This document shows positions 15,171 through 56,077 of a stretch of DNA of 64,000 bases, one piece after another. Each line of letters begins with the position of its first letter. Positions within the stretch are counted from its first letter, which is position 1. Both the position numbers and the translations under genes were made by a program. The stretch is from Rheinheimera lutimaris. GTDB taxonomy: Bacteria > Pseudomonadota > Gammaproteobacteria > Enterobacterales > Alteromonadaceae. The notes beneath the pieces were generated by a model that was given only the letters and a program-made list of their open reading frames with translations, did no database searches and was not told the DNA's origin. The stretch lies in the NCBI RefSeq assembly GCF_013283795.1, contig NZ_JABSOD010000003.1:62001-126000 (forward strand), in the 5' to 3' direction.

Positions 15171-17465
15171 ATGACATCTCCAGGCTTACACCGCTGCTTG
15201 CGCCACCCTTGGTGGGCGCTGTTTTTCTCATTACTGCTGATTGCGCTGTGCAGTATCGGCATGGGCAAGCTGTATTTTCGCGGCGACTACCGCATTTTTT
15301 TCTCACCACAAAATCCGCAACTGCTGGCGTTTGAGCAGATGCAATATGACTTTAATAAAAGCGATAACTTGCTGATTGCCGTGGTGCCGCAAGATGGCAA
15401 CGTTTTCACTGCTGACACCCTGACCCTGCTGCAGCAACTGACAGAAGCCGCCTGGCTTACACCTTATGCAATCCGCGTCGATTCTGTTACTAACTATCAG
15501 CACACCGAAGCGGACAACGATGATTTACTGGTGGCCGATTTACTTTACGACCCGGCCAGCTTAACGCCTGACAGCATAGCGCGGATTAAACAGATAGCAC
15601 TGCAGGAGCCGGCACTGGTAAACCGGCTGGTGTCAGCCAGCGGTGCCGTGGCCGCCATTAATATTACCGTGCAGTTGCCGGAGAAAGACCAAAATAAAGA
15701 AGTGCAGGATGTGTGGCAGTATATGCGCCAGCAAACAGACGACTTTGCCACGCGCTACCCGGGGGTGGAGTTTCACCTGACCGGGGTTATCGCCATGAAC
15801 CATGCTTTTGCTTCAGAGGCAGAAAACGACGCAAAAAACCTGGTACCGCTGATGTTGCTCGGCATCTTAGTCATGCTGGCCTGGTTGCTACGCTCGGTTA
15901 CCGCCTCCTTTGCTACTCTGGTCATCATTATCGTTAGCGTAACCTCCGCGCTGGGTCTGGCGGGCTGGGCCGGCATTTTCCTAAGTACTGCCACCATTAA
16001 TGTGCCGACCATTTTAATGACACTGGCGGTAGCCGACTCGGTGCATATTATCGCCTCGGCGCAGTTTGCCCTGCGCCGCGGTGACACTAAGCTGAACGCG
16101 CTGCACTACAGCATTTCGCGCAACCTTAAACCGGTGTTGATCACCAGCATTACTACAGCAATCGGCTTTTTAACACTGAACTTCTCTGAAGTGCCGATTC
16201 TGCGCGACCTGGGCAATATGACGGCGGCAGGCGTTATGCTGGCCTGCCTGTACAGTCTGGTACTGCTACCGGTGTTGTTGCTGTTGTTACCGCTGAAAGC
16301 CGGCAAAGCCACTGCCGATACCCACGGCGCCATGGACTGGCTGGCCGACACGGTTATTCGTTATCAGCGGCTGTTACTGCCTGGCTTAAGTATCTTTATT
16401 TTACTTTGCACTGCCCTGATCAGCCTGAACAAAGTGAATGATGAAGCCATTAAATACTTTGCCGAATCGACGGAGTTTCGCCAATCAAATGACTTTTTGG
16501 AGCAAAATCTCAGCGGCTTTACGCTAATGGACTTCTCCGTCAACGCCGGGCAAAGCAATGCGGTAAACCAACCGGAATTTTTGGCAGCGGTCGACGATTT
16601 CAGCCAGTGGTTACTGGCGCAGCCGGAAGTTACTCATGTCAACACTGTTACTGATGTGATAAAACGGCTGAACAAAAATATGCACGGCGACAATCAGGCC
16701 TTTTACCGCCTGCCGGACAGCAGCGAGCAAGCCGCGCAGTTTTTATTAATGTATGAAATGTCACTGCCGTTTGGTCTGGATCTCAACAACCAGCTTAATA
16801 TTGATAAAAGTGCTACCCGCATCAGCGCCACACTGCGTAACTTGGGCAGTAAAGAGCTTACCGGGCTCGAAGCACGGGCACTGCAGTACATGGCAGAGCA
16901 ATATCCACACTACAAGGTAACTGCCGCCAGTGCAGCATTGATGTTTGCCCATATCGGCGAGCGCAATATGGCGTCGATGTTAAAAACCCTGCCACTGGCA
17001 CTGGTGTTAATTTCACTGCTGCTGATCTTCAGCTTGCAATCGTGGCGGCTGGGCTTACTCAGTATGGTGCCCAACATAGCGCCGGCATTGGTGGGCTTTG
17101 GCCTGTGGGGGCTGATCAGCGGTGAAATTAATCTGGCGCTGTCGGTAGTCGCCGGTATGAGTTTGGGCATTATCGTTGATGACACAGTGCATTTTCTCAG
17201 CAAATATCAACACGCGCGGCAAGAAGGCCGCGATGCCGAGGCCGCCGTACGCTATGCTTTTCACAGTGTCGGCCGCGCGCTATGGATCACCACCCTGGTG
17301 CTGGTAGCCGGTTTTGGCGTGCTGATGTTTTCCGGTTTCCGGCTAAACTCAGATATGGGTATGCTAACCGCACTTATTATCTTTATTGCGCTATTGATTG
17401 ATTTTCTGTTGCTGCCGGCCTGCCTGCTGCGCTTTGACAACCCCCGGGAGAAACACCATGTATAA
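15171..17465 (+). CDS. MMPL/RND-superfamily exporter
   Basis: A 764-residue inner-membrane protein with the two-fold MMPL layout: TM1, a large periplasmic loop, five TMs with the VADSVHIIASAQF motif (about residue 285), then a second half with TM7, a loop and TMs with the matching IIVDDTVHFLSKY (about residue 665). This is the Patched/sterol-sensing-like COG1033 group. The next two genes encode an outer-membrane-lipoprotein-sorting-like protein and an outer-membrane protein, a familiar trio likely to move a lipid or lipoprotein-like substrate to the cell surface. The substrate is unknown. Confidence 0.9.
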   Translation: MTSPGLHRCLRHPWWALFFSLLLIALCSIGMGKLYFRGDYRIFFSPQNPQLLAFEQMQYDFNKSDNLLIAVVPQDGNVFTADTLTLLQQLTEAAWLTPYAIRVDSVTNYQHTEADNDDLLVADLLYDPASLTPDSIARIKQIALQEPALVNRLVSASGAVAAINITVQLPEKDQNKEVQDVWQYMRQQTDDFATRYPGVEFHLTGVIAMNHAFASEAENDAKNLVPLMLLGILVMLAWLLRSVTASFATLVIIIVSVTSALGLAGWAGIFLSTATINVPTILMTLAVADSVHIIASAQFALRRGDTKLNALHYSISRNLKPVLITSITTAIGFLTLNFSEVPILRDLGNMTAAGVMLACLYSLVLLPVLLLLLPLKAGKATADTHGAMDWLADTVIRYQRLLLPGLSIFILLCTALISLNKVNDEAIKYFAESTEFRQSNDFLEQNLSGFTLMDFSVNAGQSNAVNQPEFLAAVDDFSQWLLAQPEVTHVNTVTDVIKRLNKNMHGDNQAFYRLPDSSEQAAQFLLMYEMSLPFGLDLNNQLNIDKSATRISATLRNLGSKELTGLEARALQYMAEQYPHYKVTAASAALMFAHIGERNMASMLKTLPLALVLISLLLIFSLQSWRLGLLSMVPNIAPALVGFGLWGLISGEINLALSVVAGMSLGIIVDDTVHFLSKYQHARQEGRDAEAAVRYAFHSVGRALWITTLVLVAGFGVLMFSGFRLNSDMGMLTALIIFIALLIDFLLLPACLLRFDNPREKHHV

Positions 17466-48710: not shown

Positions 48711-48802
48711 AGCACTGTTCTTGTTGGGCGCAGTGAAGCTGGCAAGGGTTGCAGTGCCGGGTTAAGCTAGACAGCAATACTACAGAACCAAACTGGATTA
48801 AC

Positions 48803-49213
48803 ATGTCTTTAGATATCAGCCCATTAATGAATGCAATTGCCAGGCTAAGTGAAGGCTTACAGCGTTATCGGCAGGACATCAGCGATATTCAAATTCGGGA
48901 TGGTTTGGTGCAACGGTTTGAATTTACTTATGAAATCAGTCACAAAATGCTAAAGCGCTATCTTGAACAAAGTTCAGCCTCGCCAGATCAGTTTGATGTC
49001 ATGCCGTTTGCAGATCTGATCCGCACTGCCAATGAACAAGGTTTACTGCAAGGCGACTGGCCGGCCTGGCGTGGTTACCGCGATATGCGCAGTAAAACCA
49101 GCCACACCTATGATGAAGATATTGCGTTGCAGGTTGTAGCCGGCATACCGGCTTTTCTTGCTGAGGCACAGTTTCTGGCAACACAGTTAACAGAGCGCCT
49201 GGCTCGTGGCTAA
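48803..49213 (+). CDS. hepT: HepT-like HEPN toxin (HI0074 family)
   Basis: A 136-residue helical protein. GYRDMRSKTSHTYDED carries Rx4HxY (R-SKTS-H-T-Y), the ribonuclease and AMP-acceptor motif of HepT toxins. In the known MntA/HepT system the nucleotidyltransferase adenylylates this Tyr to silence the RNase. The two genes overlap by eight bases. ATG 48803 has GGAT upstream. The motif is intact, so the toxin is likely active. Confidence 0.9.
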   Translation: MSLDISPLMNAIARLSEGLQRYRQDISDIQIRDGLVQRFEFTYEISHKMLKRYLEQSSASPDQFDVMPFADLIRTANEQGLLQGDWPAWRGYRDMRSKTSHTYDEDIALQVVAGIPAFLAEAQFLATQLTERLARG

Positions 49214-49544
49214 ACCTGCAGGGTTACAGCTCAGCGATAGTGAATGGCAACAAGTCAGCGCCATTTTGCAGCGCTACCTGTCGCAATATGAAGTATGGGC
49301 TTTTGGCTCTAGGGTAAAAGGCAATGCCAAACCCTACTCGGATTTAGATCTGGCCATTATCACTGATACACCTTTACCGCTGGCATTGTTGGCCGAGGTA
49401 GCAGAAGCCTTTAGCGAGTCAGACCTGCCGTGGAAAGTCGATTTAGTAGATTGGGCTACCACTTCAGAGCGGTTTCGACAGGTGATTGCAGAGCAGAAAC
49501 TCGTGCTTAACGCTACAGATCAAGGGCCAGAGTCAGGCCTATAG
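49206..49544 (+). CDS. mntA: MntA-like nucleotidyltransferase antitoxin
   Basis: A 112-residue minimal nucleotidyltransferase starting at GTG 49206, inside the hepT end. The catalytic motif GSRVKGNAKPYSDLDLAII gives GSxxxG and the D-x-D metal residues. It silences HepT by adding AMP. The gene runs tail-to-tail into the Toprim nuclease gene of the SMC operon, with a six-base overlap. Confidence 0.9.
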   Translation: MAKPAGLQLSDSEWQQVSAILQRYLSQYEVWAFGSRVKGNAKPYSDLDLAIITDTPLPLALLAEVAEAFSESDLPWKVDLVDWATTSERFRQVIAEQKLVLNATDQGPESGL

Positions 49545-50402
49545 ATTTATCTCTGCTATTCTCATACCCTGCATATTCTGCTGTCTGAGTCCTTCAAGCT
49601 GTTCGCACAGTAACTGCATATACGGCTGCAATTCAGCGGCGAACGTTTTAGCTTTGATTCCAGCGATAAAGCTAAGCTGTTTATCCGGCAGCATAGTGGT
49701 GCTGGCGTGTTGTTGCAGTGTGGCAAACTCCGGCAACAGCATGGCGCTGTAGCCTTCGTTGAGGGCGATGCTAACGCCTTTGGCGTCGAAATCACCAAAG
49801 TACAACGCCGGTTTGTTTTGCTTCAGCCAGGCGGTTTTCAGCGCTTTGCAGCCTTTGCTGTATAGCGTATCTCCACGATAGATTATCAGTGGCTGTGTGT
49901 AAGTTAGTACCAGCGTAAAGGCGTGCAGCTGGTAAAAACAGTCGAGGTTTTCTACCACCAACAGCGCATCAAACTGCGCCAGCGGTAATTGTTGCCAGTC
50001 TATATCCAACACTTGCGCTGCTATTCCGGCAACAAGCTGTGGCTGAGCCAGACTCACTAACACCCGCTGTTGGCGCGGCTTGATACCAATACTTTTTTGC
50101 TCAATGGTGCTGATATTGGCCGCGTCGGTGCGGCTTAGGGTACTGATGTCGATACGAAAATCTGGCTGGCCCAGTGCTTGTTGCACACCGGCGATTTGCT
50201 TCAGTAAACCTGATTCAAAGTAGAATTCCGGTCGCTGCAGGCAACTGGCAGAGACGCTGCTTAGCTGCTGGGTCAGGCACCAGCTTAACACTTCTTGCAC
50301 CGCTTTTTGACTGGTGGCCTTTTTAACCCGGCCCTGCGCGGCTACCTTTGGCGCTAATTGGCGCAGAAAAAGGCAGGCGGCGGGGCTGAGAACAGGCTGC
50401 AC
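49539..50402 (-). CDS. JetD/MksG-like Toprim nuclease
   Basis: A 287-residue protein. LLVVENLDCFYQL gives the Toprim glutamate and YFGDFDAKGVSIAL gives the D-x-D metal pair, so the fold is that of JetD nucleases that cut plasmid DNA held by SMC loops in Wadjet systems. It is shorter than most JetD proteins (about 380 residues or more as I recall), so the N-terminal arm is reduced. Start GTG 50402 overlaps the previous stop TAG by one base. Fourth gene of the SMC operon. Confidence 0.8.
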   Translation of the reverse strand: MQPVLSPAACLFLRQLAPKVAAQGRVKKATSQKAVQEVLSWCLTQQLSSVSASCLQRPEFYFESGLLKQIAGVQQALGQPDFRIDISTLSRTDAANISTIEQKSIGIKPRQQRVLVSLAQPQLVAGIAAQVLDIDWQQLPLAQFDALLVVENLDCFYQLHAFTLVLTYTQPLIIYRGDTLYSKGCKALKTAWLKQNKPALYFGDFDAKGVSIALNEGYSAMLLPEFATLQQHASTTMLPDKQLSFIAGIKAKTFAAELQPYMQLLCEQLEGLRQQNMQGMRIAEINL

Positions 50403-51643
50403 TAGGCCGCCTGTAACTGCAGGCTGATATCACGGATCAGCAGCAACTGATTCATGCTGCTGGCGGGCGCTTCGTCACGCACTATGGCAAACATGCGTTT
50501 TTCATCCACCGGCAGTGCCTGATATTCGGCGATAATTTGATACAACCAGATTTCGCTGTCCCACTGCAGTTGCTGCTGCGCCAGATACTCCAGCGCACTT
50601 AACTTGCCGCCGTGGTCGATAACGCGCAGGTAGAAGTTTTCCACGTCGGTTTTCAGCGCCTGCTGGCGCGCAGCTATAGTTTCATCCTGCCACTGCACAG
50701 CAAAGCTGGCGCCGGGCGTATCGGGTAAGGTCAGGCTCTGTTGCCGTGGCAAGGCCCGCACTAAGCCGGCTAACACTTGCCGCTCGCTGGCGTTATCCAG
50801 TGCTATCGCTGCCTTGGGCACTATGGCAGCAGCCTGGTTAAACAACGCAGGTAGCTCGCTGCGGTTGGCGTAATCGGCCGGCTGATATTTCGGGTGCTGG
50901 CGTAAAAACGCCGCCATATTGGCAATAAGTAACGAACGCGCCTGCTGCTGACGGAATTTTGCCAGTAATTCGACCAACCGCTTTTGTACTTCCAGCAAGC
51001 TGCTGTGATGCGAGCTAAGCTGGCTTTGCAGCTGACTGACCAACAGCTTACGTAAGTGGTTGTTGCCTTCGGCCAGTTCTATTAACTCGTTGAAGTCCAG
51101 CAGCGCCAGGCCATCCAGCAAGCGGCGTAGTTGCTTTTGCGCCCGTTCGTTTTCACGGATTTTATCGTCCAGGCTGGCGACAAAACCAAAGTCGCTGTTA
51201 AGCCGGTGCCACAGGCTGTCTATCGCTTCTTCAAACTGGCCGCTTAAGTCGTGCACGTGTTCGGTTAAACGCTGCAGTTGCAGCTCGGCCACGCTGTAGT
51301 CACCTTTGAACTGCGCATCGCGATAGGCCTGCACGCGGTTGCGGATTTGTTCCAGCTTTTCTGCTACGTCGGCATTGATCTGGCGGCGGTTTTCATCGGC
51401 CACCATACTGGCAATCAGCTCGCTAACCAAAGGCCGCAATGCCAAGGGTTGCTGCTCGTCCGGCCGCCATAAAATGCGCGCCGCAATAAGTTTTTTCAGC
51501 GCGGCTTCGCTAAATACCGTTTCATCCACAAAGCCGTCCAGATAACCCTGCATCAACGCTTTGTGATGCTTGCCCAATAAGGCTAAACGCTCGGCGCCGA
51601 TAGTAAACAGGTTAGAGGCAACAGCCGGTTCTGCAGCAACCAT
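50402..51643 (-). CDS. Kleisin-like subunit (MksF/JetA type)
   Basis: A 413-residue helical protein in third place of the SMC operon. It has long amphipathic helices (NRRQINADVAEKLEQIRNRV, LVELLAKFRQQQARSLLIAN) between a folded N-terminus and C-terminus, as for MukF/MksF kleisins that bridge the SMC heads and bind MksE dimers. Position between the MksE-like and nuclease genes and its size both fit. Start ATG 51643 overlaps the previous stop (TGATG). Enzyme labels such as phosphoenolpyruvate carboxylase would not fit. Confidence 0.75.
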   Translation of the reverse strand: MVAAEPAVASNLFTIGAERLALLGKHHKALMQGYLDGFVDETVFSEAALKKLIAARILWRPDEQQPLALRPLVSELIASMVADENRRQINADVAEKLEQIRNRVQAYRDAQFKGDYSVAELQLQRLTEHVHDLSGQFEEAIDSLWHRLNSDFGFVASLDDKIRENERAQKQLRRLLDGLALLDFNELIELAEGNNHLRKLLVSQLQSQLSSHHSSLLEVQKRLVELLAKFRQQQARSLLIANMAAFLRQHPKYQPADYANRSELPALFNQAAAIVPKAAIALDNASERQVLAGLVRALPRQQSLTLPDTPGASFAVQWQDETIAARQQALKTDVENFYLRVIDHGGKLSALEYLAQQQLQWDSEIWLYQIIAEYQALPVDEKRMFAIVRDEAPASSMNQLLLIRDISLQLQAA

Positions 51644-52263
51644 CAGAGCAAGGCCTCCTGATTGGGCGTGTCATCTACCGGCAGGTGTTCTTCATCACGG
51701 ATAAAGCGAATAACCTCAATTAAATAGTCAATTTTGCCGGTGACGATATAGTACTGGCGGTCGTGGTGCGGCTGCAGCAGGTAGCCGTGTTCTTTTAAGC
51801 GGCGGAAAATCAGTTTTACCTGGTTATCCAGCTGCTCGCTCTGGCTGTTAAAAAACCGATCGCCGGCCAGTTGATTTAAACGCTGACGCAGGCTTTGGTT
51901 ATCTTCGGTGCGCAGTACAAATTCCTGCAGTTTAATGGTGTCGCCGGCGGTTAGCGCACTGTCACGCCCCAGCGTTTCCTGCACCAGTTGCAGCCATTCC
52001 AACAACGGCAGCAAGGATTGCACCGTTAAAGCAAACTGGCTGCTTAGCTGTTCGCGCGCCTGTTTTGTCAGTTCCTGATAACCGAGAAAAAACACGCTGC
52101 TATCGTCGCTGGCCACCAAACGGCGGTTCAGCGGCCGCAGGTAGTGATTAATATCCTGTTGGGTTTGTTCATCGCTTAAATGCCGGAAGGCATCTTCGTC
52201 GGTTACGCGGCAAATAAAATCACCGGCCAGCAGGCGCTCGAGTAAAGGTCCGTGTTGTAACAT
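51643..52263 (-). CDS. MksE/JetB-like condensin subunit
   Basis: A 206-residue protein with winged-helix segments (LIFRRLKEHGYLLQPHHDRQ) and an acidic tail, typical of MukE/MksE. It would bind the kleisin and DNA and control head opening. ATG 52263 overlaps the ATPase stop by one base. Second gene in the operon. Confidence 0.8.
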   Translation of the reverse strand: MLQHGPLLERLLAGDFICRVTDEDAFRHLSDEQTQQDINHYLRPLNRRLVASDDSSVFFLGYQELTKQAREQLSSQFALTVQSLLPLLEWLQLVQETLGRDSALTAGDTIKLQEFVLRTEDNQSLRQRLNQLAGDRFFNSQSEQLDNQVKLIFRRLKEHGYLLQPHHDRQYYIVTGKIDYLIEVIRFIRDEEHLPVDDTPNQEALL

Positions 52264-55200
52264 CAGCTGGCCTCCTGCTGTTTACCGGCCAGCCGTTCGG
52301 CTAAGCGGCTGACTTTAGGTTGAATGCGTTTTAACTGGCGTTTGCCCGGGTCTTGCTGGCTGGGCTCAATTAAATAACGGTGTTGAAACAACATTAATAC
52401 GTCGGACTCCGGGTTAGGAAAGGCGCCGACGATAATAATGTTGTTAGCGCTACAGGCGGCAAACAATTTTTCCACGTTGTGATACGCCAGGGTGCCGATT
52501 TCATCTATCGGCCAGTGAATAGCAACCTTAGCGTCACCGCGCAGTAAGCGGGTAAAGGCGAGTAAATACTTACATAAAATTAAGTACGCCATACCGTGGC
52601 TGGACGACTCCAGCAACTGACGATCATTTTTAATCACCAGCTCAGAGCCGCCTTCGCTTAAATGCAGCTCGAGGCGCAGCAAAGACTCAATGCTGTATTG
52701 CTCGTCGGCGCGCAGCAGCTCTACCACATCGGCCAGCGCATTCAGGTATTGCTCGGACGGCAACACTTTACCCGACTCGCCCCAGTCGTCGTACAGCTTG
52801 GCGAAGTGCTTTAACGGCTGCCAGAAGCCCAACTCGTCAATAGTGGATAAAATGCGCACCTCAGAGCGGCTGATGCCATCGAGTACCAAATCATCCGCGA
52901 CCGCAGCACTTAACCGCCGGCTTTGCTGCGCAATACGCTTATTAATGTCGCTGAACACCGTGAAGAACTTTTTCAGATCGCCGCCAATGTTTTCGCCCAT
53001 TTCCAGCAGTTGCTGCTGCGCATCTTTTAAAATTTGCAGCAGGCTGTGTAATATCGGCAGTTGCCGGCGTTTACCGGCATAGTCCGGCAGTTGACGTTTT
53101 TCGTGTTGCAGCCGGTCTAAAAACTCCGGCCCGGCATCTTTACTCAGCACGGTTTCAAACTGCTCCAGCGCAGCTTTTAAGGCATTATCCTGTTTACTGC
53201 GCTGCTCCAGTGCTTCATTGGCCCGCGCCAACCGCTCAATCATATCGGCAGACACCGTAAGTACGGCAGGACTAACACCGGCCAGATGCAGTTCGCCAAA
53301 TTTGCTGAATACCGGCTTTAACTGCTCCAGTAACAGGCCGGCCCGCTGCATGATGTCCTGCTGTTGGCGTTTTTGCTCTTCAAGCTTTTTCTGGCTGCTG
53401 CTGTAATCGGCTTTTTGCTGTTCCAGTGCCTGCTTTATGCTGCGCTGCTGCTGTTTTAATTCAGTTTCTTTGCCCAGCAGCTGTGGCCGCAGCTGCTGCC
53501 AGTCCAGGCTGATAAAGTTCTGCCAGGCGGTCAGTTCATCCTGGCGTGCTTCTACTGCTTTTATATCGGTTTTCAGCTGTTCTTGTTTTTGTTTTAACTC
53601 GGTTAAGCGGCGCGGATCAATACCCTTAGCCGATAACTCTTCATTAAACGCCTGCTGCAACTCTTTGATTTGGTTTTTGTTATCGTCGCGTTTATGTTCC
53701 AGCTGGCGCTCCAGCTCGTCAATTTGCTCGTCAAATACCTGCAGTTCAGCCTGCCAGTCGGCTTTATGCTCCAGCTTCTGGCTGTTATGGTCAGCTTTCA
53801 GTGCCTGTAAATCCGCCTGTTGCTGCTGTTTCAGTTTATCCAGTTGCTGTTGCTGTGCCGCCAGTTCGGCTTTGACATCGGCCTGACGCCTGGCCGCCAG
53901 CTCGCGCTGCTGCACCTGCAGCCGGTTGCGGGCATCACGGGCGTAATCGATATTTTGCTCATATTGCGTCAGTTGCCACTGTGCCTGCTCTGCCTGGCTG
54001 CGGCTGAGCTCGGCTTGTTCATGCAGCTGTTGCAGCGTTTTTTCGGCCTGCGCTTTGTCTGTCGTGGCGTGTTGCAACTGTTGCTCAGCCGCGTTAATCC
54101 GCTGGCGAATGGCGGCTTCATCCTGCGCATAATCCGGCGTATCTATCGCCGTTAATTCCAGCTGCAGGCCATACAGGCTGTCGCTAAGCTCAGTAAAGTG
54201 CGGTTGTAAATCCTGCCGCTCTAATAAGCGCTCATCCAACACCTTGCCCAGCTTTTGCTCCCAGCCGTTGTAATGCAGGCGCAGAAAATGGCGCAAGCTA
54301 CCCTGCTCGGGTGTTAACTGGCGATGCAGTTGCTGCAGTTGTTGCTCAGCGCTGTGCAGCGCTTTGCGGCTGTGTTGCAACTGTTGATCGGCCTCATCAC
54401 GTGCAGAGCGGGCCTGCTGGTGCTGCAGTTGTAATTGCTGCAGTTGGCGCGCTTGCTGCTGCGCCTGTTGCTGTGCCTGCTCTAAACGCAGTTCGGCGCT
54501 GCGCTGTTGCTCTAATTCTTCTTCTGTCAGCTGCGACGCTGTCAGCTGGCTTTGCAATACCGCAATACTGCTGCTGATACCGGTCAGCTGATCAGCAAAC
54601 TGCTGCTGCGCCTGTTGCAGCCGGCTTTGAAACGCCTGCTCTAATGCCGCCAGCTTAGTGTCTTGTTGCTCGCGGGTGGCGTCTTTTTGCTGTTGTAACT
54701 GGCGGGCTTTGGTGCGGTGCTGCTCGCTTAAACGGTTAAAGGCTTCAGCCAGCTTAATTTTACGCTGCTCTAACTGGCGCTCTAAATCGCCGTGTTGCTC
54801 TACCATCAGCTGGTATTGCTCAAGGGTTTCTGCCAACTGCTCACGCCACAGCGGTAAGGCATCACTGTCGCGCTGCAGTTTCGGCATATCTTTGCCATCA
54901 AACTCATCATAGCGTTGTTGCAACTGATCCAGCCGGGCGCCGGTTTCATGCAGGTTAGCCTCAGCCTGGGCCAAATTGCTGTTCAGCTCCAGTTGCTGCT
55001 GGCTGAATTGCTCTTTTAAACTTTGCAGCTGGCCACGCAGCGCATTCAACTGCTGCTCGGCATCAGCCTTGCGCAGTTTTTCGCTGTTTTCATCTTGCTG
55101 TAATAACGGCAACAGTGCCGCCAATTGTGCTTCGCTGCCATCTAACTGTTGTGCCAGCTGGTTTAAACGCTCAAAGTCCTGTTGCAGTTTGTCCAGCCGC

Positions 55201-55928
55201 ATCGACTGGCGCATCTGCTGGATCCACTCGCGTGCCTTGGTATTCTTTACTTTAGTGGTAGGCAGGGTTACGCCGTCTTCTTCAAAAATGGCCGCCAACA
55301 TCGCTTTTAGCGTGTCCATTTTGCCTTCTTTGGCATGCACGGCACTCACCAGCTTTTCAATATGGCGCAACTTATGACCACTGCCAACCAGGCTGAAACC
55401 CGCCGCCAGGCGCCGCAGTTTCACGCTGTCGGCGCTGTTACCGCGTAATGCCGCAGCGTCGTTTTGAATAATACTGCGGTATTCACTGGTAGCACTGATT
55501 TTGGCCGATACCTGCACGTCGGGCCGGGCGCGCATCGCCGCCGCCCAGTCGCTGTAGCTCATGGCTTTTACGCCATCTTCGCTTTGCGTCAGGTAAAAAT
55601 CGCTCTGGTATGGCGCACCAACAAAGCGGTATTCCACACCGCCGTCGCTTTTGCGCGTCAGCACCACCTGACATACGGCCCCGCCTTCGCGCTGGTATTC
55701 ATAAATCAGATAGCTGTTGGAAAACGGCAGGTAAAATTCGTCAAATTTCTTACGGGTTTTTGGTACCACGCGGTTGGGCTGCTCGCCAAAAAACACCGGC
55801 ACCAGCCGTTGCAGTGTGGTTTTACCCGAGGCATTGGTGCCGCAAATATTAGTGTGCTGATCTAACTGCAGTTCTACCACACCCGGCAAATGGGTATGAA
55901 TAAGCACAATACGGAGTAATTGAGACAT
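52263..55928 (-). CDS. SMC-family ATPase (MksB/JetC type)
   Basis: A 1221-residue SMC protein. Walker A GTNASGKTT starts at about residue 30; two very long Gln/Leu/Ala-rich coiled coils (about 245-560 and 650-960) flank a hinge-like centre; the C-terminus has the signature-like ESSSHGMAYLIL and Walker B VAIHWPIDEIGTLA. It would load on and extrude DNA loops using ATP, leading the Toprim nuclease to circular plasmids. ATG 55928 with AGGA upstream is the likely start; 55949 adds seven residues only. It is the first gene of the operon. Confidence 0.9.
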   Translation of the reverse strand: MSQLLRIVLIHTHLPGVVELQLDQHTNICGTNASGKTTLQRLVPVFFGEQPNRVVPKTRKKFDEFYLPFSNSYLIYEYQREGGAVCQVVLTRKSDGGVEYRFVGAPYQSDFYLTQSEDGVKAMSYSDWAAAMRARPDVQVSAKISATSEYRSIIQNDAAALRGNSADSVKLRRLAAGFSLVGSGHKLRHIEKLVSAVHAKEGKMDTLKAMLAAIFEEDGVTLPTTKVKNTKAREWIQQMRQSMRLDKLQQDFERLNQLAQQLDGSEAQLAALLPLLQQDENSEKLRKADAEQQLNALRGQLQSLKEQFSQQQLELNSNLAQAEANLHETGARLDQLQQRYDEFDGKDMPKLQRDSDALPLWREQLAETLEQYQLMVEQHGDLERQLEQRKIKLAEAFNRLSEQHRTKARQLQQQKDATREQQDTKLAALEQAFQSRLQQAQQQFADQLTGISSSIAVLQSQLTASQLTEEELEQQRSAELRLEQAQQQAQQQARQLQQLQLQHQQARSARDEADQQLQHSRKALHSAEQQLQQLHRQLTPEQGSLRHFLRLHYNGWEQKLGKVLDERLLERQDLQPHFTELSDSLYGLQLELTAIDTPDYAQDEAAIRQRINAAEQQLQHATTDKAQAEKTLQQLHEQAELSRSQAEQAQWQLTQYEQNIDYARDARNRLQVQQRELAARRQADVKAELAAQQQQLDKLKQQQQADLQALKADHNSQKLEHKADWQAELQVFDEQIDELERQLEHKRDDNKNQIKELQQAFNEELSAKGIDPRRLTELKQKQEQLKTDIKAVEARQDELTAWQNFISLDWQQLRPQLLGKETELKQQQRSIKQALEQQKADYSSSQKKLEEQKRQQQDIMQRAGLLLEQLKPVFSKFGELHLAGVSPAVLTVSADMIERLARANEALEQRSKQDNALKAALEQFETVLSKDAGPEFLDRLQHEKRQLPDYAGKRRQLPILHSLLQILKDAQQQLLEMGENIGGDLKKFFTVFSDINKRIAQQSRRLSAAVADDLVLDGISRSEVRILSTIDELGFWQPLKHFAKLYDDWGESGKVLPSEQYLNALADVVELLRADEQYSIESLLRLELHLSEGGSELVIKNDRQLLESSSHGMAYLILCKYLLAFTRLLRGDAKVAIHWPIDEIGTLAYHNVEKLFAACSANNIIIVGAFPNPESDVLMLFQHRYLIEPSQQDPGKRQLKRIQPKVSRLAERLAGKQQEAS

Positions 55929-56077
55929 AGCGCATCCTGTCAGCGGCACTGCAAACTTACGCCGCTATCGTGATTTTATAGCGGCTTATTATCCATGGAA
56001 TGCGCTTAAATGCCAGTTTGAAAAACGCTGGCTGTGGTTCAGATGGCGCAGTAACAACAATCTTGGACAATAACCGC

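Follow-up and report, generated by a model that had tools for sequence, protein, structure and literature searches.

How complexes of the structural maintenance of chromosomes (SMC) type tell a plasmid from the chromosome, and how Wadjet and MukBEF are connected by descent, are both unresolved in the field according to PMC10586767. Here we ask what is made of these questions by a locus in a 64,000-nucleotide stretch of Rheinheimera lutimaris DNA (contig NZ_JABSOD010000003.1, positions 62,001 to 126,000; hereafter the window, to which all positions refer). On its minus strand lie four open reading frames (ORFs), transcribed in the order C-B-A-D with adjacent genes sharing one base, which we read as an SMC-type ATPase (C), a KITE subunit (B), a kleisin (A) and a short TOPRIM nuclease (D). 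A preliminary description of the sequence had proposed a distinct subtype of plasmid-defence condensin. Is the operon a plasmid cutter, a condensin of the chromosome, or one and the other by turns? The evidence supports a distinct ATPase-first branch of the MukBEF/MksBEF/Wadjet group, and the whole is best explained, at what we judge to be somewhat better than an even chance, by a clamp-guided condensin core, C-B-A, which would have a second, nuclease-independent role and in D an optional plasmid-cutting partner.

Position of the operon within the MukBEF/MksBEF/Wadjet group

The four-gene content first described holds, with Pfam matches for C, B and D and the weaker evidence of a predicted fold for A, and so do the one-base stop/start overlaps, which read TGATG at 52263 (C/B), TGATG at 51643 (B/A) and TAGTG at 50402 (A/D). 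C matches PF12128 over profile positions 1-1190 of 1191 and is the sole match to itself in its own genome; a GTG at 55949 offers an alternative start (ORF 52263-55949), and the 1221-residue ATG form has a length common among relatives. No NCBIfam model scores above its cut-off for any of the four proteins. SMC, KITE and TOPRIM nuclease thus stand in one operon with a kleisin assigned by fold only, and since related loci have the same gene order the arrangement is not due to chance.

No exception to that order was seen. Among 38 stretches from relatives 36 have C-B-A, the others being L068, which breaks off after C, and L069, which has C and A with B not detected; C-B-A is also the order in all 80 named loci, with A cut by a contig end in three and split in L098; these 80 are the best of 516 relatives and come partly from the same genomes as the 38 stretches. 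They include Rheinheimera, Arsukibacterium, Alishewanella, Alkalimonas, Oceanospirillum, Marinospirillum, Paraglaciecola, Halomonas, Vreelandella, Chromohalobacter, Ectothiorhodospira and others. In 62 of them D comes next after A, in 15 it is missing or broken, and in 3 it lies out of view. The usual order, described beforehand as kleisin first and ATPase third, was indeed seen as A-B-C-D in four Wadjet type I loci (L172, L173, L176 and L182, of which only the last had every subunit typed by PADLOC and the rest were assigned partly by place) and as F-E-B in three MukB loci (L178-L180), by place.

Mobile elements share the arrangement found here. Matches to C occur in 45 of 72,556 plasmid records, all below 60% identity and three with at least 80% of C in one place, and in one of 50,697 phage records. 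Among six plasmid or phage loci examined, five have C-B-A-D with all four subunits confirmed by profile (plasmids of Aromatoleum, Vibrio, Acinetobacter and Marinobacter, and Dolichospermum phage Dfl-JY45), and the sixth is a fragment. A scan of viral contigs gave 31 pattern matches and no relative. On an Enterobacter cloacae IncHI2A plasmid a shortened DUF3584-like ATPase gene (L205:6971-7660, 229 codons) is followed by insertion sequences, and the same 214 residues are matched in three more enterobacterial plasmids among the matches listed. C-B-A-D is also carried, with C 56% identical, by a contig of 11 kb deposited as Escherichia albertii NBRC 107761 (L096), which may be contamination or a plasmid.

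The operon is not recognised as Wadjet by the profiles of PADLOC 2.0.0. The best Jet profile for C is JetC1 with 13.6 bits (E 0.003, 43 residues), where four reference type I JetC ATPases score 1404-1825 bits with their best model; B reaches 20.3 bits (JetB1) and D 25.7 bits (JetD3), A has no match whatever, and ten reference type I proteins score from 275 to 1825 bits. Types II and III were compared by profile only, JetC3 giving 6.5 bits on C and JetC2 nothing at E <= 1. Matches to JetC3 in 79 of 150 genomes were short, at most 32 bits, and were set aside as coiled-coil chance. When 47 ATPase heads were placed in a tree, a branch of length 2.7 (support 100) set the 31 DUF3584 rows apart from the rest; the 11 type I rows form a separate group (support 83) and MukB neighbours the DUF3584 clade (support 82). 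The branches of this tree are long, its single outgroup (L187) is an SMC by our own reading, and it contains no type II or III rows because JetD2 matches were weak and confined to 4 of 150 genomes. Membership in Wadjet type I is ruled out by the PADLOC scores and the separate clade together.

The MukB N-terminal family PF04310 is found neither in the genome nor, at E <= 1, in C, and a Lamassu LmuB-type ATPase model gives 8.8 bits (E 0.098), too weak to place C there. Searched against solved structures, C itself had two matches (E 0.08 and 0.11), both unrelated proteins, and its profile had 18 at E <= 0.1 (best 8e-4) to coiled-coil and transporter proteins, with Rad50 coiled coils at E 0.05-0.07, which we read as chance, as we do the 1, 1 and 7 matches at E <= 1 of the profiles of D, B and A.

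The kleisin is the least secure of the four assignments, as nothing in Pfam lies above cut-off for A either. A structure model built with 37 homologues has long helices joining short helix-and-strand ends that we read as winged helices, and a Foldseek search of 350,542 PDB chains ranked JetA (8q72) first and MukF (1t98, 9gm7, 3euh, 3rpu, 7nz2) second to sixth. Several results weigh against this reading and, more widely, against the explanation favoured here. The model is of modest confidence (predicted local distance difference test, pLDDT, 68; predicted template modelling score, pTM, 0.41) and the Foldseek E values are 0.02-0.06, none below 0.001; VIA-align puts STAT coiled coils first (Z 13.1), taken here as a helical-bundle resemblance and not as the identity of A, with MukF at Z 9.6-10.6 and a root-mean-square deviation (rmsd) of 6-11. 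Comparisons of small profiles gave no link of A to JetA/MukF or of B to JetB/MukE (probabilities 0.3-16%), 48% for D and JetD on 16 columns, and for C and JetC 97%, limited to 45 Walker A columns. We take A to be a JetA/MukF-type kleisin because of the Foldseek ranking, the size of the protein and its place in the operon, an identity that does not emerge from sequence profiles.

That the operon might be the only condensin of the cell is ruled out by ScpA, which lies in the same genome on another contig and in all 31 genomes of the genus (by which we mean the congeners in Rheinheimera, Arsukibacterium and Alishewanella). The unvarying order, the low PADLOC scores, the ATPase clade of its own and the presence of ScpA beside it support the distinct branch. 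Of the subtype first proposed the distinctness is upheld, outside type I and MukB, and "plasmid-defence" stands at best by half, for reasons that follow from the fate of D.

Table 1. Features of the operon, with positions in the window
Feature	Position	Strand	Remarks
C, SMC-type ATPase, DUF3584 family	52263..55928	-	1221 aa from ATG at 55928; PF12128 835 bits
Walker A of C, GTNASGKTT	55815..55841	-	G37, N39, G42, K43, T44 invariant in 15 homologues; position derived from residue numbers
ABC signature region of C, SSHG	52593..52604	-	S1116, S1117, G1119 invariant in 15/15; "signature" is our reading beside reference ATPases
Walker B of C, PIDE	52500..52511	-	P1147, D1149, E1150 invariant in 15/15
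B, MksE-like KITE subunit	51643..52263	-	206 aa; PF21980 MksE 32.4 bits (cut-off 27)
C-terminal QEALL of B, sliding-clamp-motif-like	51646..51660	-	overlaps Shine-Dalgarno-like CAGGAGG ahead of A
A, JetA/MukF-like kleisin	50402..51643	-	413 aa; fold only, no sequence match
D, short JetD/MksG-type TOPRIM nuclease	49539..50402	-	287 aa; DUF7281 and JetD_C above cut-off
TOPRIM glutamate E151 of D	49950..49952	-	invariant, 38/38
TOPRIM DFD motif of D (D204, D206)	49785..49793	-	both Asp invariant, 38/38

The C-terminal tail of subunit B

The end of B suggests how the complex could find its DNA. Counted over loci up to L150 with B above 150 bits, all 78 distinct tails end in Qxx[LMI][LFI], whether D is present (56 of 56) or not on record (22 of 22, including at most three loci, L102, L103 and L118, whose contig ends before D), and none of 573 control ORFs does, these being mechanical picks of at least 100 codons from L033-L070 and not verified genes. 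Among 28 representatives chosen at 80% identity, position -5 is invariably Q, position -2 is restricted to L or M and position -1 to L, F or I, and the linker ahead of the pentapeptide is poorly conserved. When a narrower pattern was looked for within the final 8 residues, 94 of 100 distinct B proteins and one of the 573 controls had it; of the six B proteins without it, four still match the wider pattern and two are the deep homologues L154 and L155. None of six JetB and three MukE reference proteins, assigned by place, fits the narrower pattern. Among homologues from plasmids and phage, four of five fit (QMRML, QGELF, QGLLL, QGELI).

According to PMC11139829 and PMC13254535 the beta-clamp motif reads Q-aliphatic-x-[L/M]-[F/L], or has an extra residue ahead of the last, and its second position is tolerant. 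In 78 of 78 cases the tails of B have the Q and a hydrophobic residue at each of the two end positions, where Ile occurs as well, and we infer from this partial likeness that B may dock on DnaN. A literature search joining MukBEF, MukE, Wadjet and the sliding clamp gave no link between KITE proteins and the clamp in titles or abstract starts among the matches listed. The likeness is imperfect in three respects: the second position is mostly Glu, where the reviewed motif, for all its tolerance, has an aliphatic residue; one plasmid homologue ends in QMRLA, outside the pattern; and the deep homologues L153, L154 and L155 have no terminal pentapeptide and contain QxxLxL strings instead (QQELFL, QQDLNL, QGSLEL).

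A fourth objection leads to a rival explanation of the tail, compatible with any reading of the rest of the operon, which we regard as having somewhat less than even prospects. It holds that Q and E come from the Shine-Dalgarno signal of A, and that the hydrophobic end docks within the complex or sets protein turnover. CAG GAG does encode QE, so that these two residues may be partly imposed, Shine-Dalgarno-like strings occur in 59 of 71 tails, and the tails of C, which carry the signal for B, are likewise rich in Q and E at positions -5 and -4. Yet all 12 tails free of such a string retain the pattern, 19 of the 71 use CAA for the Q, and neither 26 tails of C nor 26 tails of A have a [LM][LFI] end. 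From these controls the Glu at the second position may be a compromise at the level of RNA, and the remaining positions look constrained at the level of protein. A string resembling the clamp motif, QLGL, is also held by the end (EEQLGLEV) of a MukE assigned by place (L180:3196-3921).

The nuclease gene and selection on the core

D has a TOPRIM of the TopoVI-A type with the catalytic E and DxD by which a JetD/MksG nuclease is known. It matches PF23947 (DUF7281) with 71.3 bits (cut-off 27) and PF09983 (JetD_C) with 27.7 bits (cut-off 22), and its model (pLDDT 94) has seven matches at E <= 0.001, all to TopoVI-A or Pseudomonas aeruginosa JetD; residues 112-284 align with Corynebacterium glutamicum MksG (8b7f) at Z 11.3 and rmsd 3.6 over 153 residues. 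It is as short as first described, with 381-415 residues being the length in the four type I reference loci (nucleases confirmed by PADLOC in L176 and L182, by place in L172 and L173).

This gene is often lost. Within the genus it is intact in 20 of 28 operons; in six of the other eight the opening codons of D survive after the stop codon of A, joined in L033 and L054 by the end of D, with differing break points, and in L056 and L058 nothing recognisable is left. A D-profile search of 17 genomes found D in the genome of the window and remnants in three. In L059, L060, L063, L066 and L067 C-B-A is open, with no remnant of D behind A and no D elsewhere in the genome. An A+B tree of 89 loci, 67 with intact D and 22 with D missing or broken, needs at least 17 changes of state; it was made by a quick method, 21 of its 86 inner branches are open, and its loci were collected by C, so that D without C would be missed. 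Left out of it were L071-L088 except L076 and L078, together with L093, L095 and L099 (for the most part duplicates of genomes of the genus); L098, L102, L103, L105, L118, L130, L147 and L148, which are truncated or have an odd start; and L068-L070. Rheinheimera sp. D18 (L099) has no D in a complete genome, which speaks against assembly error there; several other D-less strains are metagenome assemblies. In two Chromohalobacter (L143, L144) an ORF of 140 codons, from about position 15597, replaces D and overlaps the stop of A by a few bases, and is not recognised by tblastn with D proteins.

Selection was gauged by Nei-Gojobori ratios (omega) in 16 pairs, some of them saturated. Omega is 0.026-0.059 for C, 0.012-0.108 for B (above 0.06 in three pairs), 0.008-0.152 for A (above 0.08 in one pair) and 0.074-0.280 for D in the seven pairs with a value. 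Among three D-less Chromohalobacter, in two pairs, it is 0.053-0.054 for C, 0.028-0.030 for B and 0.033-0.049 for A, so that constraint on the core would persist in the absence of D, provided that the three have the loss in common, which their clade suggests. Over 171 congener pairs (without L061, whose C is 42% identical and for which no shared flank gene was found) mean identity is 85.1% for C, 91.2% for B, 88.4% for A and 60.6% for D; the identity of A tracks that of C (Spearman 0.79) and that of D hardly does (0.20). D is moreover a mosaic: compared with L051 and L055 the D of the window is 38-46% identical in the first three blocks of 41 residues and 73-93% in the last four, and compared with L034 88-95% in the first six. 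By these measures C-B-A is under purifying selection and D is evolving faster, and with the core held in relatives without the nuclease, plasmid cutting is unlikely to be its sole role.

Two observations weigh on the other side. Losses of D in the Rheinheimera pairs may be recent, in which case omega there says little on life without D, and the operon is absent from three of 31 congeners, one of which retains both flanks, now separated by about 7 kb of other sequence, and all three of which retain the upstream flank gene, so that it is dispensable there. This absence, the intact D in 67 of 89 loci with its TOPRIM residues invariant in 38 aligned proteins, and the presence of D in all five complete plasmid and phage loci are what would be expected of a further type of Wadjet whose only function is to cut plasmids and whose D-less operons are decaying remnants. 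The low omega of the D-less Chromohalobacter core and the open C-B-A of the five loci without any trace of D fit badly with decay, and we consider pure plasmid defence unlikely.

The opposite view is that the operon is a chromosomal condensin proper, the MukBEF analogue of gammaproteobacteria that have ScpAB, with D as a topoisomerase-like helper and not a defence nuclease. Across the class PF12128 is above cut-off in seven genomes out of 274, no more than two candidates having been scored in each; C was found in 39 of 60 genomes searched, including 28 of the 31 of the genus (that of the window among them), and 24 of the 27 other congeners with C carry at least one flanking gene of the window within the 20 kb fetched. 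MukB is above cut-off in none of the 31, with one weak match in G026, and of the 29 genomes outside the genus 11 have C, nine have MukB and none has both. We hold this view to be quite improbable, for all that prevalence, shared flanks, absence of any genome with both C and MukB above cut-off among the 60 and the resemblance of D to TopoVI-A as well as to JetD speak for it, because D is fast-changing, mosaic and often lost, as expected of an effector in an arms race, C-B-A-D is found on plasmids, and the exclusion of MukB may reflect ancestry only.

Neighbouring genes, known systems and a proposed mechanism

A HEPN/MNT-like pair on the plus strand at 48749-49544 (PF08780; PF18765 and PF01909) runs towards D and shares 6 bases with the end of that gene; the MntA model gives it 50.3 bits, under the NCBIfam cut-off of 60, and an MNT homologue lies at most 20 kb away in five other congeners. 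Its small nucleotidyltransferase (49206-49544, plus strand) also matches a PADLOC type I specificity subunit profile with 77 bits (positions 8-96 of 485), a score that seems to be a peculiarity of the profile. In L040, L051 and L055 there is on the opposite strand downstream of D a 441-residue ORF that looks HipA-like. A defence-island setting was not adopted, as the recurrent neighbours, read from their lengths and sequence starts, look metabolic, transport or housekeeping-like.

Set beside Wadjet type I (JetABCD/MksBEFG), the operon has the same SMC, KITE, kleisin and TOPRIM nuclease of JetD/TopoVI-A fold; it differs in its order, C-B-A-(D) and not A-B-C-D, in the weak JetC match and separate ATPase clade, in a nuclease that is often lost and has about 110 residues ahead of the TOPRIM part where JetD has about 205, and in the clamp-motif-like tail of B. 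Plasmids carry this system themselves, as PMC10586767 states for Wadjet. With MukBEF of Enterobacterales it shares group and SMC-KITE-kleisin make-up, JetA and MukF being the best PDB matches of the A model, whereas MukBEF has no nuclease and the order F-E-B, and the present operon stands beside ScpA in a genome without PF04310. With MksBEF(G) it shares the MksE match of B and nuclease-free loci with an intact core, but the loci described in PMC10123090 have the order mksFEB(G). An operon survey by consecutive MksB, MksF and MksE hits, in which several members have no MksG (PMC7617805), may contain this branch, unnamed, in its Data S1. Literature searches found DUF3584 in five papers, with a single occurrence in each, no mention of DUF7281, and no naming of a fourth or new Wadjet type beyond a "Wadjet-like" mention.

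How might such a complex work? To judge from families and folds, C, B and A would form a MukBEF-like, loop-extruding SMC complex, and the pentapeptide of B behind its linker probably tethers it to the DnaN sliding clamp, which would direct it to replicating DNA. Where D is present the complex would activate it to cut small circular DNA such as plasmids, as homology with JetD/MksG suggests, D being a detachable, fast-changing effector in this scheme. The evolution of the core points to a second role of C-B-A that needs no nuclease, most likely the organising of newly replicated chromosome beside SMC-ScpAB. A bolder version, which we offer tentatively and give rather less than even prospects, is that of an SMC condensin tethered to the clamp through its KITE C-terminus and switching in evolution between a plasmid killer, with the nuclease, and a replication-coupled organiser of the chromosome, without it. 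Such a complex would bridge Wadjet immunity and MukBEF housekeeping as a living intermediate, guided in both states by one cue, the clamp on replicating DNA.

The PADLOC 2023 profiles barely detect ATPase C and leave kleisin A undetected. The branch offers natural pairs of near relatives that differ in the nuclease and share a conserved core, in which the two roles would be genetically separable, and a complex directed by the clamp, if true, would supply the recruitment cue.

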